Positions 6,645 to 48,314 of a stretch of DNA of 64,000 bases are shown piece after piece (the stretch's first letter is position 1; every line of letters starts with the position of its first letter). Under the pieces are notes generated by a model. The model was not told the DNA's origin and ran no database searches. It saw only the letters and a program-made list of their open reading frames with translations. The position numbers and the translations under genes are program-made. Location of the stretch: contig NZ_AP029019.1 in assembly GCF_037101375.1 (NCBI RefSeq), positions 3,820,001-3,884,000 of the forward strand, read 5' to 3'. Source of the stretch: Acidovorax sp. DW039 (GTDB lineage: Bacteria > Pseudomonadota > Gammaproteobacteria > Burkholderiales > Burkholderiaceae_C).

Positions 6645-6775
6645 AACGCACAATGCCTAGCAAATGCAGGAGTGGCCAGCGCTTGTTCAAAAAGCGCTGA
6701 CTCTGCATTAAGGGCACAAGGGCTGCAAAGCCGCTCATTCCCTCTACGCATCAATCGCCCACTTTTTGTGCAGCC

Positions 6776-18696: not shown

Positions 18697-19422
18697 TTAG
18701 TAATGCATGTGCGGGGCCGCTCCCCCGCTGCTCCCGGCAGGGACTGAGGGTGCCGCTGGCGCAGGGCGGCGCGGGCGTGGCACCACGCTCAGCTGCATGG
18801 TCTCCAGCACTGGAGTGGGTTGCACTTGCAGGGATTTGCGGGGCAGGTCCACCAGTTGCTCGGCATGCCATACACGCAGCTGCGCAGCACCGTCGGGCAC
18901 AGCGGCAAACCGGGCAATGCCGTTCTCATCGGTCTTCAGCGTCCAGCCCGAATCCGTCACGAACACGTGGCCGCGCATGGAGCCGTGCAGATGGCAGCCC
19001 AGCAACACCACGCCCGGGTGCTGCAGGGTCACGTCAGCCGTCTGGGCGGGCTGGCCATCCTGCTTGCCTGCCAGTCGCATCTCGAAGCCTTCGTTGGTGA
19101 CTGCAGTTGCTTGCCCCGCTGCAGCCACTGGCGTGCCACGCACATGGTGGTCCCAACGGTCCTGGTTGGTAAAGCGGATGCGGGTGCCGGGGGCCACCAC
19201 GGTCAGTGCGGGCACAAAGCGCATGCGCTCTTGTTCGATGGTGGGCGCAGCCTGCAACAGGCTGCCCGCGGGAGCGGCACCCGCAGCGGGGTACAGCACC
19301 ACCACGGCATCGGGCACGGGTTTGCCATCGCGGTCCAGCACTTGAATCTGAACATTTCCGGCGCTAGCGCTTATAGAGAAAGCGTAAGCAGCTATGAATA
19401 ATGCAGCAAATGAGGTTTTCAT
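18697..19422 (-). CDS. Cupredoxin-like 'methylamine utilization' periplasmic protein
   Basis: A 241-residue secreted protein (MKTSFAALFIAAYAFSISASA signal region). After a carboxypeptidase-like beta strand (QIQVLDRDGKPVPDAVV) comes a cupredoxin domain with IRFTNQDRWDHHVRG and GCHLHGSMRGHVFV. The histidine of the DHH and the Cys-x-x-His-x3-Met triad would form a type I copper site. A proline/alanine-rich tail ends in HMHY. It is the last gene of a minus-strand trio with truncated haemoglobin and a DUF3034 barrel. The signal-peptide coding region contains a copy of the short dispersed repeat (19366-19402). Electron transfer or copper binding is likely; the pathway is unknown. Confidence 0.75.
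   Translation of the reverse strand: MKTSFAALFIAAYAFSISASAGNVQIQVLDRDGKPVPDAVVVLYPAAGAAPAGSLLQAAPTIEQERMRFVPALTVVAPGTRIRFTNQDRWDHHVRGTPVAAAGQATAVTNEGFEMRLAGKQDGQPAQTADVTLQHPGVVLLGCHLHGSMRGHVFVTDSGWTLKTDENGIARFAAVPDGAAQLRVWHAEQLVDLPRKSLQVQPTPVLETMQLSVVPRPRRPAPAAPSVPAGSSGGAAPHMHY
19366..19402 (+). repeat. Short dispersed repeat copy R2 inside signal-peptide codons
   Basis: AGCGCTTATAGAGAAAGCGT followed by AAGCAGCTATGAATAAT matches the consensus (G/A)GCGCTT-N7-AAGCGCAAGCAGCTAT. It lies within the cupredoxin-like gene and encodes, on the opposite strand, part of its hydrophobic signal segment. Confidence 0.55.
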
Positions 19423-34500: not shown

Positions 34501-36921
34501 TCAACGCACCTTGCGCCCCCGTGCATCCCCGGCTGAGGGTGCAGCAACCTGCGCCACCGTTGCACCACGCACTTCAAACTGCACGGCGTCCATGACCCGC
34601 CCCTGCTCGTCGGCCAGTTCCAGCTGATGCCGGCCGGGCCAGGGCAACCATTCCAGCGACGCGCCACGGCCCAGCGGTTTGCCGTCCAGTCGCCAGGTCC
34701 ACCGGGCATTGTTTCCTTCAGAGGCCGTCATGCGCAGACGCTGGGACTGGGGGGGAATATCAGGGTCCAGCGCAATGATGGTGCCCTTGACCGGGCTGAG
34801 GATGCGCCCCGCCTCGGGTTCAGCAGGCTGCCCACTCTTGGGATTATTTTTGCCTTTGGCGCTTGCAACATAAGCGGGAGCAGCTACGTTATTGATAGCA
34901 AAAAACGGCTGCTGGGTTCCTTGCACAAACCACTCCTGCCGCGCGGCTTCCAGCGGCATGGCGGCAGCCCGCTGGCGCTGGGCAGCAATGGGTGCGTCAG
35001 CGGCATCGTTCGCCGCAGGCCCAAAACGCACGGCCTGCTGCACAACGCCCTGGGGCGGCTGCGGCGCACGGCTGGGCTCGCGGGCGTGCAGAAAACCCAT
35101 GATGGCAGCCCACACGGGCGCAGCGCCGCTGGTGCCGCTGACATCGTGCATGGCTGCGCCGCTGGCATTGCCCACCCACACGCCCACGGTGTAGCGCTGC
35201 GACCAGCCCACAGCCCAGTTGTCGCGCATGTCCTTGCTGGTGCCAGTCTTCACCGCCGTCCAAAAGCGCGTGGCCAGCACGCTGTCGGTGCCAAAAGTGC
35301 GCGCCCGTGCATTGCCGTCGGAGAGGATGTCGCCCACGATAAAGGCCGCCCGCGGGTCCAGCCCCAGTGCAAATGCAGGTTTGGCATCGGCTGGCAGCAC
35401 CCTCACAGCACTCAGGCGCCCGCCGTTGGCGAGCGAGCGGTAGGCGTTGGTCAGGTGCAGCAGCGGCACCTCGGGGCTGCCCAGCGCCAGGCTGTAGCCA
35501 AAGTAGTCGCCACTTTCGCGCAAAGGCATGCCCAAGGCGCCGAGCTGGCGATGGAAGGCATCCGGCGTGACCATGACCAGTGTGCGCACCGCAGGCACAT
35601 TGAGCGAAGCCGCCAGCGCAGTGCGCACCGACACCCAGCCCTTGAACTGCCGGTCGTAGTTTTGCGGAATGTAGAGCCCGCCTGAGGTGGCAATCTGGGC
35701 CGAAGAGTCATCCACCAGCGATGCCGCCGTCAGCCGCTGCTCGGCAATAGCCTGCGCGTACAAAAAAGGCTTGAGCGTGGAGCCCGGCTGGCGCGGGGCC
35801 AGCACGCCATCCACCTCGCTGGCCTGGCTCAACACGCCAGAGGAGCCCACCCACGCCAGCACCGCCCCTGTGGCGTTGTCCAGCACCAGCACGGCACCGT
35901 CTTCCACATGCCGCCCCCGCAGCTCGCGCAGATGTTGCTGCAGGGTTTGCACGGCAAAGCGCTGCAAAGGTGCGCGCAAGGTGGTGCGCAACTGCGGGGT
36001 CGTCACCGGGCTGATGCCCCCTGCGGCAGCCGATCCAGCGCTACCCGCCCCACCCTGCTGCTGGCGCAGCGCATAGCGGGCAAAGTGGGGAGCCACGCCC
36101 TCGGTGGCATCAAACGCACGGTGCTGCAGAGCGGCAGAAGCAAACAGCTCCAGCGCATCGCAGTCCAGCGCTGCAGAACGGCTTACTGTGGCCACTTTCG
36201 TCGGTTCGGCAAGCGCTGGCTGCATGGCGCGCAGCACGCCACAGGCCCGTTGCGCCACCAGCGCGGGTTTGGCATTGGGTGCGCGCACCAGGGCTGCTGC
36301 CACCGCGGCCTCCCGGTCATCCAGCCCGTGGGCTGCCTTGCCAAACAGGGTTCGGCTCAGTGCATCGATGCCCACCACCTCACCCCGAAACGGCACCAGG
36401 TTGAGGTAGGCCTCCAGAATCTGGTCTTTGCGCCAGCGGCGGTCCAGCACCTGCGCTGCCACGGTCTGCCCCAGCTTCTGCACCACTGTGCGCCCCCCCG
36501 GCCCCTGTCGCCAGTCACCGTCCAGCAGCCCGGCCAACTGCATGGTGATGGTGCTGGCCCCCCGCGTGCGCTGGTTCCACAGGTTGCCCCAGGCGGCTGC
36601 CGACGCAGCGCGCCAGTCCACCCCACTGTGCTCATAAAAGCGCTTGTCTTCGCTGAGCACCAGCGCCGTGCGCAATGCGGGCGACACATCGGCCAGCGGC
36701 ACCCACTGGCCCCGGCGCACCGTGGCATCGGTGCGGATGCGCTGCACCACCTCGCCCTCGCGGGAAAGGATGAGCGTGTCTGATGGACGAAAGTCCTGTC
36801 GCACCTCGGCATAAGTGGGCAAGGCATGCACAGCAAAGCCGGGCAGCGCCGCGCCCATCACCACCAATGCACGCAGCCACAGGGTGCGCATCTCTCTCCC
36901 TCTCACCATCTCAGCCTTCAT
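34501..36921 (-). CDS. pbpC: Penicillin-binding protein 1C
   Basis: An 806-residue bifunctional peptidoglycan synthase. The ATGA overlap with the CPBP gene supports the start at 36921; ATGs at 36909 and 36891 are alternatives. Glycosyltransferase motifs: EDKRFYEHSGVDW, RGASTITMQLA, KDQILEAYLNLVPF. Transpeptidase motifs: SxxK in PGSTLKP (Ser381), SLN in AASLNVPA and KTGTS. A C-terminal PBP1C domain begins near RILSPVKGTIIALD. A copy of the short dispersed repeat (34858-34899) lies in the linker before that domain, encoding FAINNVAAPAYVASA. PBP1C commonly pairs with bacterial alpha-2-macroglobulin, which lies two genes upstream. Confidence 0.93.
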   Translation of the reverse strand: MKAEMVRGREMRTLWLRALVVMGAALPGFAVHALPTYAEVRQDFRPSDTLILSREGEVVQRIRTDATVRRGQWVPLADVSPALRTALVLSEDKRFYEHSGVDWRAASAAAWGNLWNQRTRGASTITMQLAGLLDGDWRQGPGGRTVVQKLGQTVAAQVLDRRWRKDQILEAYLNLVPFRGEVVGIDALSRTLFGKAAHGLDDREAAVAAALVRAPNAKPALVAQRACGVLRAMQPALAEPTKVATVSRSAALDCDALELFASAALQHRAFDATEGVAPHFARYALRQQQGGAGSAGSAAAGGISPVTTPQLRTTLRAPLQRFAVQTLQQHLRELRGRHVEDGAVLVLDNATGAVLAWVGSSGVLSQASEVDGVLAPRQPGSTLKPFLYAQAIAEQRLTAASLVDDSSAQIATSGGLYIPQNYDRQFKGWVSVRTALAASLNVPAVRTLVMVTPDAFHRQLGALGMPLRESGDYFGYSLALGSPEVPLLHLTNAYRSLANGGRLSAVRVLPADAKPAFALGLDPRAAFIVGDILSDGNARARTFGTDSVLATRFWTAVKTGTSKDMRDNWAVGWSQRYTVGVWVGNASGAAMHDVSGTSGAAPVWAAIMGFLHAREPSRAPQPPQGVVQQAVRFGPAANDAADAPIAAQRQRAAAMPLEAARQEWFVQGTQQPFFAINNVAAPAYVASAKGKNNPKSGQPAEPEAGRILSPVKGTIIALDPDIPPQSQRLRMTASEGNNARWTWRLDGKPLGRGASLEWLPWPGRHQLELADEQGRVMDAVQFEVRGATVAQVAAPSAGDARGRKVR
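34858..34899 (+). repeat. Short dispersed repeat copy R3 within pbpC
   Basis: GGCGCTTGCAACATAAGCG then GGAGCAGCTACGTTATTGATAGC split at 34876 keeps the repeat layout: GGCGCTT, a short spacer, AAGCG, GCAGCTA and a terminal ATTGATAGC. It is read through in frame by pbpC on the other strand and forms a low-complexity linker. Confidence 0.55.
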
Positions 36922-45847: not shown

Positions 45848-46830
45848 GGCGCTTATGGGGAAAGCGCAGGCAGCTATGAAATTGGTAGTGATTGCTTGGG
45901 TTCTTCTGCCCCGGTCATACCCCATCCGTTCGGGCTGAGCCTGTCGAAGCCGGGGCTTGCTGGCTGATCTTGTCGCATGCCTGTGCCTGGGACGGGAGCC
46001 GGGGAGTGCGCCCGGCGGCGCAGTAACTTTCTCTTGTCTCGCCAAGAGAAAGTCACCAAAGAGAAAGCGACCCCACTGTCTGCGTCCCCTGCGCTTCGCT
46101 ACGGGGCAACCTGCGGTGCTCGCGGGCGGGGTGCGCTGCGGAACTCGCTGCGCGCCTGCGGCGCTCCGCTCAAACAGCCGCAGCGAGTCAGTTCACGAAG
46201 CGCGTGTGTCCTTCGGCACACGCGCCACCCCGCCCGCTGCGCTCCTCGGCGCATACAGAGGGGATGGGGAGCCAAACAGCCACTCGGGCCATTGCTTCGC
46301 TCGGCCCGAATTCGCGGGCGCAAGCGCCGCGCGCTGGGCGCTGGGCGCCGGACGCAGCATTGGCAGGGTCGAGCGCAGCGACGACCCGAGTGGCTGTTTG
46401 GCTGTTCGCCCCCCTGCTGGCTGCGCCTGCGGCGGTGCGGTTGCGGGGTGAGCATGGGCGTCGAAGCGCCCATGCCTCGTCCTCTAGCTCGCCGGGGTTG
46501 TCCGAGCGGCGCTGCGCAGCAGCACAGCGAGTTCCACGGCGCACCCCGCAACCGGACCGCCGCAGGTCTGCCCCTTCGCAACGCGAAGGGGTCGCAGACT
46601 GGGGGTCGCCTTTTCTTTGGTGACTTTCTTTTGGCGAAGCAAAAGAAAGTTACTGCGCCGCCGGGCGCAATCCCCGGCTCCCGCCCTCAGCAAAGGCATG
46701 CCACCCCATCAACCCAAAAGCCCTGGCTTCGACAAGCTCAGCCCGAACGAATGGGGATATGACAGGGGCAGAAAAATCCAAGCAATCACTACCAATTTCA
46801 TAGCTGCCTGCGCTTGATCCATAAGCCCTA
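45848..46830. repeat. About 980-bp near-perfect palindrome (giant inverted repeat)
   Basis: The whole gap 45825-46838 is occupied by one symmetrical element centred near 46338. A perfect 37-bp pair lies at 45863-45899 and 46778-46814; a perfect 19-bp pair AGCCAAACAGCCACTCGGG at 46271-46289 and 46385-46403 shares the same centre. Between them, TTCGGGCTGAGC(C/T)TGTCGAAGCC, the GGCGGCGCAGTAACTTTC block and AGAAAGTCACCAAAGA blocks are mirrored with a few differences. The outer arms carry copies R5 and R6 of the short dispersed repeat. Frames predicted in it are repeat artefacts; I see no gene. It separates convergent genes. Confidence 0.85.
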
Positions 46831-46838
46831 AACCAAAC

Positions 46839-48314
46839 CTAAACCCCGCCCAACATCCGCAACGCAGGACTCGCAGGTGCCAACTGCTGCAACTGCACCC
46901 CAAAAGCCGCAGCCTGCTCACGCCTGCCTGCCTGGCACAACCCCGCCACCAACATGCCCAGCGTCTCACCCAGCTCAGGATGGGTCGGCGCTGTCTTGTG
47001 CAAGGCCAGAAACAACTTCTCTGCATCGCCCCATTGCTGCGCCCGCGCAAAGCGGCGCGACAGACGGGCCATGTCATCAGGCTGCAGACGCGCGCCGGGC
47101 TTGGCTTTTTCGAAATAGGTGCGGTAGCTGGTGTGCTGGAAATCCAGAGTGGCCGGGTCGTGGGCCTTGAGGCGGAAGATGCGGCGCGCAGCGCGGTGAA
47201 AGTCCTCCCCCTCAGGCCACAACGATGCCGTCTTGAACCATGCACTGAGCACCTGCGCATCTTGCGGACGCAGCTGGGCGGCGGCACGCCACTGGCCCAG
47301 GGCCTGCTCAAACTTCATGGCCTGGGCCAGGCGCTGGGCGTTGGCCACATGGGTGTCAAAGCCATCGTCTTCCTCTGCGGCATCGCTGGCAGCGGGCACT
47401 TCCAGCGGCTTGCTGCGCACGGCCATGGCCAGGGCCATGAGCGCGGCCCCGGTCAGCAACCCGCCCAGGTGGGCCATGTAGGCCACGCCGCGCCCACTGA
47501 ACCAGTGCTGCAGCAGCTCGTTGGCAATCCACGCAGGCAGTAGCAGCAAGGCGGGGGCCGTGACGTAGTTGAAGTAGAAAAAGAGCTGGTAGAAGAAACG
47601 CACACGCCGCAAGCGGTACATGACCGCATACATGCCCATGAGCGCCGACACTGCGCCCGAGGCACCCAGGCCGTAGCTGCCCATGCCTGCGTACGCCCAG
47701 GCCGACAGGGCCGAGCCGCCCAGCCCGCCCAGCAGGTAGAAGGCCAGATAGGTGGTGCGGCCCAGCGCCAGTTCTACCGAGAAGCCGAACAGAAAGAGGA
47801 ACAGCATGTTGCCCAGCAGATGCCCCGTGCTGCCATGCAAGAAGGTCGCCGTGAGCCAGGTGATGGGGCGAAACTCCGCCTCCTTGCCATAGTCCATGGC
47901 CCAGTGGCGTGTGAACGGGGCTGGCAGCTTGGCCTCGTATTCAGTGCGTGCGCTCTTCCATGCTGCGTACTGCGGGTCGCTCTCGCGCACCTCCAGCCCG
48001 GAACGCAGGCGCTGCTGAAAGGTGTCCTCCTGCTCCATCCAGCGCAGCAGCGTGCGGTAGCTGCCCGCCTTTTGCAGGCGCAAGGCCTGCCGCAGCTGCT
48101 TGTCTCCTGTGGATTCCAGCCACGCCACAAAGCGCGGCACCTCCAGCGAGGGCAACACGCTAGCCACGTAGTAGGTGGCCGCAACATCGCGGGCCTTTTC
48201 CTCGGTGCGCTGCGGCCCCCAGAACACGGCCATGTTGATGAGGATGAGCAGCACCGTCATCCAGGGCGGGTTGCGCCAGGTGGGGCGGTTTTCCAGGGGA
48301 ATGGCGTAGAACAT
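46839..48314 (-). CDS. Rhomboid-family intramembrane serine protease with TPR-like tail
   Basis: A 491-residue protein. A first helix (about 18-34) is followed by a long soluble loop, then the rhomboid core: FLHGSTGHLLGNMLFLFLFG (HxxxxxHxxxN), the catalytic serine in GLGASGAVSALMG (Ser219) and the catalytic histidine in MAHLGGLLTG (His282). From about residue 325 a soluble helical tail has TPR-like repeats (ALGQWRAAAQLRPQDAQVL, WGDAEKLFLALHKTAPTHP, REQAAAFGVQLQQLAPASP). The dyad is intact, so proteolytic activity is expected. Substrates unknown. Confidence 0.9.
   Translation of the reverse strand: MFYAIPLENRPTWRNPPWMTVLLILINMAVFWGPQRTEEKARDVAATYYVASVLPSLEVPRFVAWLESTGDKQLRQALRLQKAGSYRTLLRWMEQEDTFQQRLRSGLEVRESDPQYAAWKSARTEYEAKLPAPFTRHWAMDYGKEAEFRPITWLTATFLHGSTGHLLGNMLFLFLFGFSVELALGRTTYLAFYLLGGLGGSALSAWAYAGMGSYGLGASGAVSALMGMYAVMYRLRRVRFFYQLFFYFNYVTAPALLLLPAWIANELLQHWFSGRGVAYMAHLGGLLTGAALMALAMAVRSKPLEVPAASDAAEEDDGFDTHVANAQRLAQAMKFEQALGQWRAAAQLRPQDAQVLSAWFKTASLWPEGEDFHRAARRIFRLKAHDPATLDFQHTSYRTYFEKAKPGARLQPDDMARLSRRFARAQQWGDAEKLFLALHKTAPTHPELGETLGMLVAGLCQAGRREQAAAFGVQLQQLAPASPALRMLGGV

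Follow-up and report, generated by a model that had tools for sequence, protein, structure and literature searches.

A dispersed quasi-palindromic repeat family of Acidovorax that usually faces against the replication fork

The described systems closest to the element reported here are the REP, BIME and REPIN repeats, which are associated with RAYT (TnpA-REP). With these repeats the element shares an intergenic position, an excess at gene 3' ends, a build of inverted doublets that form hairpins, layers of REP-like appearance, and occurrence both as single units and in arrays. Polarity is a further likeness, as polar arrays are reported in Pseudomonas fluorescens SBW25, where tandem arrays of REPs have opposite orientations on the two sides of the chromosome (PMC3116915). 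On the other hand, the unit is approximately 400 bp here instead of 20-40 bp, only the outer layers being short, and the doublet measures about 0.8-1 kb. REPs occur in very many copies per genome, whereas at least 6-9 copies per genome were scored here (nine genomes, small pieces excluded), and no RAYT is linked to the element. In Acidovorax ebreus, the motif GCTTAT(N)5AAGCG is reported in 114 copies, 107 of them intergenic, and the intergenic copies lie between convergent genes in 44 cases, divergent genes in 4 and co-oriented genes in 59 (PMC5217627). This motif corresponds to outer layer A of the element, and its gene-context bias is close to that of the element; however, it is a short spaced motif, and the available part of that source does not describe the long element, its unit or its polarity (PMC5217627). 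The beta-proteobacterial repeat elements (BRE) are likewise intergenic, found in Bordetella and in Comamonadaceae including Acidovorax, but they are 75-91 bp long, tandem and not co-oriented with the fork, in a comparison made by description only (PMC3110155). The MITEs and intergenic repeats of P. fluorescens resemble the element in being non-coding, in their inverted repeats and in their tail-to-tail placement, while the MITEs are 50-352 bp long with short terminal repeats around a core (PMC2718517) and the element is quasi-palindromic over its whole length. Of the features of a MITE, inverted ends are present, whereas comparison of sites yielded no clean insertion boundary and no target-site duplication. 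Among the papers listed by topic searches none described the long element, which does not prove its absence, and among the listed matches to its letters in published texts nothing was apparently related.

The locus lies in a window of 64,000 nucleotides, the whole stretch of DNA that was analysed, from contig NZ_AP029019.1 of Acidovorax sp. DW039. The coordinates of its features are given in Table 1, and the two genes on either side are convergent, as an earlier sequence-only reading of this DNA had stated. The four perfect inverted stretches (38, 26, 19 and 16 bp) have a common midpoint at 46336.5-46338.5. In a gapped alignment the arms are 79.7% complementary over 468 columns, which supplies the arm identity that the sequence-only reading had left to be measured, and the arm-to-arm score is 521, a value that never exceeded 45 when one arm was shuffled 100 times. 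The proposal of one continuous symmetrical element with a single midpoint is thus confirmed. The description of this element as near-perfect holds for the outer 73 bp, which are 90% complementary, but not for the whole, in which the inner blocks reach about 75-87% and the very centre is asymmetrical. In short, this is a genuine palindrome, though an imperfect one. A palindrome of such length would be expected to be unstable. The RNA fold of 45848-46830 has z = -29.6 against 20 shuffles, and the outer layers of this copy have the highest arm likeness among 113 copies (score 77, mean 22.5).

Table 1. Features of the quasi-palindromic element and its flanking genes (window coordinates)
Feature	Coordinates	Strand	Remark
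Left flanking gene, 465 aa	44427..45824	+	no Pfam family at E 1e-3
Whole quasi-palindromic element	45848..46830	+	family '+' orientation = against the fork
Outer layer A, left	45848..45919 (boundary approximate)	+	AGCGCTT(N7)AAGCGC-type repeat plus AGCTATGAAAT...
Layer B, left	45929..45951	+	REP-like TTCGGGCTGAGCNTGTCGAAGCC
Left arm, diverged ~400-bp unit pointing outward	45995..46317	-	usual core-match start plus arm alignment; limits approximate
Short hairpin GTAACTTTCTCTTG...CAAGAGAAAGTCAC, left arm	46023..46056	+	
Asymmetrical centre separating the two units	46318..46365	.	
Right arm, ~400-bp unit, also found singly elsewhere	46366..46757	+	half copies match 519-910 of the element
Internal stem-loop domain, right arm	46426..46566	+	46426-46453 pairs with 46539-46566
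Matching hairpin GTGACTTTCTTTTG...CAAAAGAAAGTTAC, right arm	46620..46653	+	with flank (46602-46653), resembles sequences in other phyla
Layer B, right	46725..46747	-	REP-like TTCGGGCTGAGCNTGTCGAAGCC
Outer layer A, right, inverted	46757..46830 (boundary approximate)	-	
Perfect inverted stretch, 38 bp	45862-45899 / 46778-46815		
Perfect inverted stretch, 26 bp	46007-46032 / 46644-46669		
Perfect inverted stretch, 16 bp	46047-46062 / 46614-46629		
Perfect inverted stretch, 19 bp	46270-46288 / 46385-46403		
Right flanking gene, 491 aa, Rhomboid domain (PF01694)	46839..48314	-	

The full element is composed of two diverged units of approximately 400 bp, arranged head to head within shorter REP-like repeats. 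This build is evident because the right arm also occurs alone, as half copies of ~400 bp (at 3666726 and 988549 of the same genome, G000, among others), and because extra right units exist; the earlier idea of a hybrid of two head-to-head repeat units therefore agrees with what is found. The outer layers consist of short repeats in their own right, a point that the sequence-only reading had overlooked, as it had the family and its polarity. The layer B sequence TTCGGGCTGAGCNTGTCGAAGCC is present once per side, and a search of the window that allowed up to 3 mismatches gave no further match. With up to 2 mismatches allowed, the layer-A-type motif is matched 16 times in the window, where 3.5 matches are expected, and palindromic motifs of this type are also seen at 6678-6698, 19366-19398 and 34858-34878. 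In genome G016 (L146-L149), a full element is followed by at least one extra right unit in the same direction, reaching up to ~1.6 kb. Four tandem layer-B repeats with a spacing of ~44 bp adjoin an element at L145:2212-2381.

The sequence at 45848..46830 is one copy of an old, dispersed, non-coding repeat family of the Acidovorax family. Its own genome (G000; 5.2 Mb, 2 contigs) contains four further long copies (81-88%) and two half copies (81 and 90%). Matches to the element at E 1e-10 are present in 33 of 36 genomes of the same genus and in 3 of the 24 genomes taken from elsewhere in the order, and the right arm is matched in 52 genomes of a family sample of 150, or 47 of 141 genera; altogether 136 element loci were fetched. 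Two records of a plasmid collection gave weak matches to the element. A phage origin was rejected, as the phage collection matched neither the whole element nor the hairpin, and so was a coding function, since Pfam gave no hit at E 1e-3 for either of the reading frames (261 and 160 aa) that run across the element. Genome G157 (L260-L278), which belongs to another genus, carries many copies, in which single units are mixed with two-armed palindromes of a different interior. A plasmid of Variovorax paradoxus (CP063167.1; L336:2394-3166) contains a palindrome of 773 bp (76%) in which the arm ends are the same and the centre differs.

Relatives of the flanking genes allow this particular site to be followed across genomes. 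The named relatives of the rhomboid gene belong to Acidovorax, Variovorax and other Comamonadaceae. In the named collection, the same two convergent genes enclose an element of the same orientation at L060, L061 (Acidovorax radicis N35) and L113 (A. temperans), while the site is a 347-bp gap with a decayed element remnant at L064 and a gap of ~190 bp with a layer-A-like piece at L068 and L103. Where the two flanking genes are adjacent in other genera, the gap is mostly 6-120 bp with no element match. Of 40 genomes of the genus, 12 gave a match to the rhomboid gene, and 6 of these 12 have the element at this site (G000, G034, G022, G017, G011 and G035), in flipped orientation in G022. Among the others, G009 has a remnant; G592 and G008, whose gene copies are more distant, have no element; and the fetched pieces of G025, G021 and G006 showed neither an element match nor the partner gene. 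Judging from these comparisons, the element at this site is old, because it is common to several Acidovorax species at the same place. A recent origin, which had been put forward to explain its retention, does not agree with this shared site or with the same two diverged arms being kept at other sites and in other genomes.

Grouping the 136 loci by their flanking DNA gave 35 clusters, which reduce to 30 sites once clusters distinguished solely by the orientation of the element are merged (five merges). At one site, the element is flipped in L043, L044 and L194 (draft genomes) relative to L031 and nine others, with unchanged flanks. A core alignment was made from 103 loci, with partial copies, five over-long loci (L145-L149) and two duplicates excluded, and blocks within this core are conserved at 95-98%. 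Copies within one genome are 81.8% identical (190 pairs), compared to 78.5% for copies at the same site in different genomes (219 pairs) and 76.3% for the rest (4541 pairs); the nearest relative of 100 copies was in the same genome in 50 cases, at the same site in 17 and in neither in 33. Because same-genome copies are more alike than same-site copies of other genomes, these data suggest sequence exchange among copies. In same-site pairs, the core is on average 0.818 identical, compared to 0.739 at four-fold sites, and it is the higher of the two in 231 of 256 pairs. It stays near 0.80 in the seven pairs whose four-fold identity is below 0.6 (down to 0.58), and in the four closest pairs it is lower (0.88 vs 0.92). 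The core thus appears to be constrained or homogenised, yet fast-varying among close relatives.

Copies of the element sit at gene 3' ends. Among 125 scored copies, 64 lie between convergent genes, 59 between co-directional genes and 2 between divergent genes, and the baseline of 143 other gene pairs from the same loci and the window comprises 19, 92 and 32, respectively. The difference is significant for convergent (Fisher p = 1.5e-11) and divergent placement (p = 5.7e-8), and with one count per cluster the values are 4.6e-6 and 0.006. The genes were called with a home-made caller, and 11 of the 136 loci, with no called gene on one side, were left unscored. Tolerance fits this bias as well as function does.

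The orientation of the copies relative to replication was scored in nine genomes, each assembled into one or two contigs, with the origin placed at dnaA and the terminus assumed to be opposite. An E. coli-type dif pattern had no match in the nine genomes, and therefore the terminus was set opposite dnaA and checked by GC skew alone, the sign of which fits the dnaA-based arm at 51 of 66 loci. Four one-arm pieces of ambiguous direction were excluded from the count (G000 4740181, G004 4873067, G018 2849725 and G034 1604976). Among the matches listed, 60 of 66 copies in the nine genomes face against the fork (nominal p = 2.7e-12). Same-site copies are non-independent, and the polarity rests on 20 sites and not on 66 copies; by site majority, 19 of these 20 face against the fork (p = 4e-5, among the matches listed). 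An orientation bias relative to replication is also a property of the IS200/IS605-like single-strand elements. Copies between convergent genes, which are informative because gene direction cannot bias them, face against the fork in 32 of 34 cases, and the other copies in 28 of 32 (both among the matches listed). Each of the 6 exceptions belongs to a site at which other species carry the element in the opposite orientation, judged against the flanking DNA. In addition, 15 of the 20 sites lie at 0.2-0.6 of the distance from origin to terminus (p = 0.002, among the matches listed). Outside the genus, single units in two other genera face against the fork in 15 of 17 cases (p = 0.002). The polarity is not seen in the full elements of two further genera, of which 2 of 4 face this way, and the pooled count is 17 of 21 (p = 0.007). 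These loci were scored by reading them individually (9 in G074, 8 in G157, 3 in G131 and 1 in G063); locus 1352730 of G074, scored as a single unit, has a partial inverted partner, and the two-armed palindromes of G157, one palindrome of G074, the ambiguous locus L269 and the genomes G179, G187, G207, G149 and G186 were unscored. This polarity against the replication fork is a new observation, and the usual orientation, opposed to the course of DNA copying, may point to replication in the element's origin or role.

The pairing within the element differs between its long arms and its short hairpins. The long arms are complementary at 0.703 within a copy and at 0.687 to arms from other genomes, and their mismatches in 103 copies comprise 1668 G-U and 1665 A-C, so neither strand is favoured. 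Three further rows of the 103-locus core alignment were omitted from the co-variation count. Compared to shuffles, they are in slight excess (0.697 vs 0.682, sd 0.001), with 1168 double changes vs 911. In the short hairpins, 69 pairs are Watson-Crick in 96.9% of cases vs 83.6% when shuffled, with 619 double changes vs 189 and with 61 G-U and 43 A-C cells, although these pairs were chosen from a structure prediction on the same alignment, for both strands, which inflates the pairing. Several hairpin pairs show two Watson-Crick types within one genome, such as columns 532/545 in 11 of 28 genomes. Template switching is reported to maintain stems (PMC8794818), and template-switch correction of one hairpin side from the other would explain the coexisting pair types without selection on an RNA. 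That the short hairpins co-vary while the long arms barely do may be read as structure at the DNA level.

Based on the results presented above, the reading that we favour, with a probability of about 0.5, is that the element is an old REPIN/BIME-like ssDNA hairpin repeat with strand-specific entry or survival at replication forks. Assembly can create inverted repeats, and this copy has the most similar outer arms of the 113 tested, as might be expected of an assembly join or a recent inverted duplication. Nevertheless, independent assemblies of other Acidovorax genomes have the same element at this site, and its arms differ by ~20%; a join at 45848..46830 is very unlikely, and the explanation as a whole, which the shared site and the diverged arms already contradict, was rejected with a probability close to nil. 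It is also improbable that the ~400-nt unit is a structured non-coding RNA gene, duplicated head to head. Such a gene would account for the conserved blocks and for the unit strand folding better than its complement in both arms (-98.6 vs -62.6 in the right arm and -101.9 vs -78.0 in the left arm), but it would usually meet the fork head-on, a scan found no promoter-like site in the element, and G-U equals A-C in the long arms, with a slight excess in the short hairpins. Moreover, a known RNA was rejected: nothing in Rfam reached the gathering score, and two matches with E 0.79 fell far short of it.

Placement at gene 3' ends bears on a further explanation, a bidirectional transcription terminator or insulator, which we consider unlikely. 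The convergent excess, the near absence between divergent genes and the strong foldability are in line with it, and repeats of P. fluorescens are reported to have a similar tail-to-tail bias (PMC2718517). However, promoter avoidance predicts the same placement, nearly half of the copies are non-convergent, and such a role requires neither a length of 1 kb nor a replication polarity. A simple scan for GC-rich hairpins with a T run behind them found two terminator-like sites, one of them outside the element, where shuffles predict 1.3, and no promoter-like sites; with no excess over shuffles and a site bias that tolerance explains equally well, the terminator suggested by the sequence-only reading finds no backing. 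A more serious rival, to which we give a minority chance and beside which the terminator and RNA readings are weaker, is a selected chromosome landmark: a site bound by a protein, such as gyrase or a nucleoid or segregation factor, acting one way relative to the fork, with sites and orientation kept by selection. This would fit the sites common to several species, the replication polarity, the position of 15 of 20 sites at 0.2-0.6 from origin to terminus, and the core that exceeds four-fold sites in 231 of 256 same-site pairs and remains at ~0.80 while these drop to 0.58. The 6 copies that break the polarity are each turned round at their site compared with the copies of other species, as though such flips seldom happened. 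Against it, 3 of 36 same-genus genomes have no match and site occupancy is patchy, several species retain flipped copies, gene conversion could by itself keep copies alike, and in 4 of the 256 pairs, the closest ones, the core is less alike than the four-fold sites. We know of no protein that binds these elements. The readings as a recombination hot spot and as a nucleoid landmark, both raised earlier, may fit the polarity together with the in-place flips.

As for how the ssDNA hairpin repeat would move and what it would do, we infer that the unit may work as a folded single-stranded DNA at the replication fork. Y1/HUH elements are reported to enter and leave the lagging-strand template (PMC6006769). 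Entry through the lagging-strand template, as in HUH/Y1 single-strand transposition, would lead to one orientation per chromosome arm. Alternatively, the orientation could be a matter of survival: the strand with the stabler hairpins might be removed when it is on the lagging template, and only the orientation tolerated by the fork would be kept. Template switching would then keep the short hairpins perfect, gene conversion would exchange copies, and at gene ends the element would do little harm and may insulate neighbouring transcription. Several observations run counter to this proposal: no enzyme is tied to the element, the copy number is low for a REP, the full elements in other genera show no polarity (2 of 4), the RNA fold of the unit strand is better than that of its complement in both arms, as would be expected of an RNA, and the long arms slightly exceed shuffles. 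Nor was a target duplication seen, and one single-unit site, compared with species that lack the unit, showed no clean insertion boundary. Genome G000 has two Y1_Tnp (PF01797) genes, which are candidate RAYTs (L134 at 1069488 and L135 at 2216546). Within ~1.5 kb on each side of these two genes there are no layer B repeats, and the element match is limited to one 17-nt stretch; a RAYT link was rejected on this basis.

The hairpin of the right arm with its flank (46602-46653) has a wider distribution, with 83-88% matches in Ilyobacter (Fusobacteriota), Aeromonas and Pasteurella (L334:3001-3049; L335:3001-3054; L337-L340), so that similar sequences are spread over Fusobacteriota, Gammaproteobacteria and other Betaproteobacteria. 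In the plasmid collection, similar sequences were found in Ilyobacter polytropus (several places), Aeromonas caviae and Pasteurella multocida, and also in Pseudoalteromonas, Burkholderia, Paraburkholderia, Caballeronia and Chitinibacter; the Ilyobacter version of the hairpin led to Pseudoalteromonas, Burkholderia, Caballeronia and others. The three of these sequences that were folded have a stem of 13-14 bp. The similar sequences as a whole are intergenic or unannotated, apart from a few weak matches inside annotated genes, and four of the records inspected around the hairpin matches carry almost no annotation. A search of 398 genomes in the phylum with a strict exact hairpin pattern gave hits in 2, which belong to the same family; this tells little about spread, because looser matches occur elsewhere. 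It is conceivable, if rather doubtful, that 46602-46653 is the recognition site of a broadly distributed putative ssDNA-processing system that builds replication-polar repeats, of which the 1-kb Acidovorax palindromes would be the most elaborate form.

Approximately thirty sites in one genus thus hold quasi-palindromes of 0.8-1 kb that last across species and nearly always face the same way relative to the fork. They make it testable how REP-like repeats without a gene of their own spread, and whether the replication fork decides which orientation of a hairpin-rich sequence survives. The short hairpins, which co-vary exactly, and the long arms, which hardly do, provide ready-made data for the study of bacterial template-switch repair.
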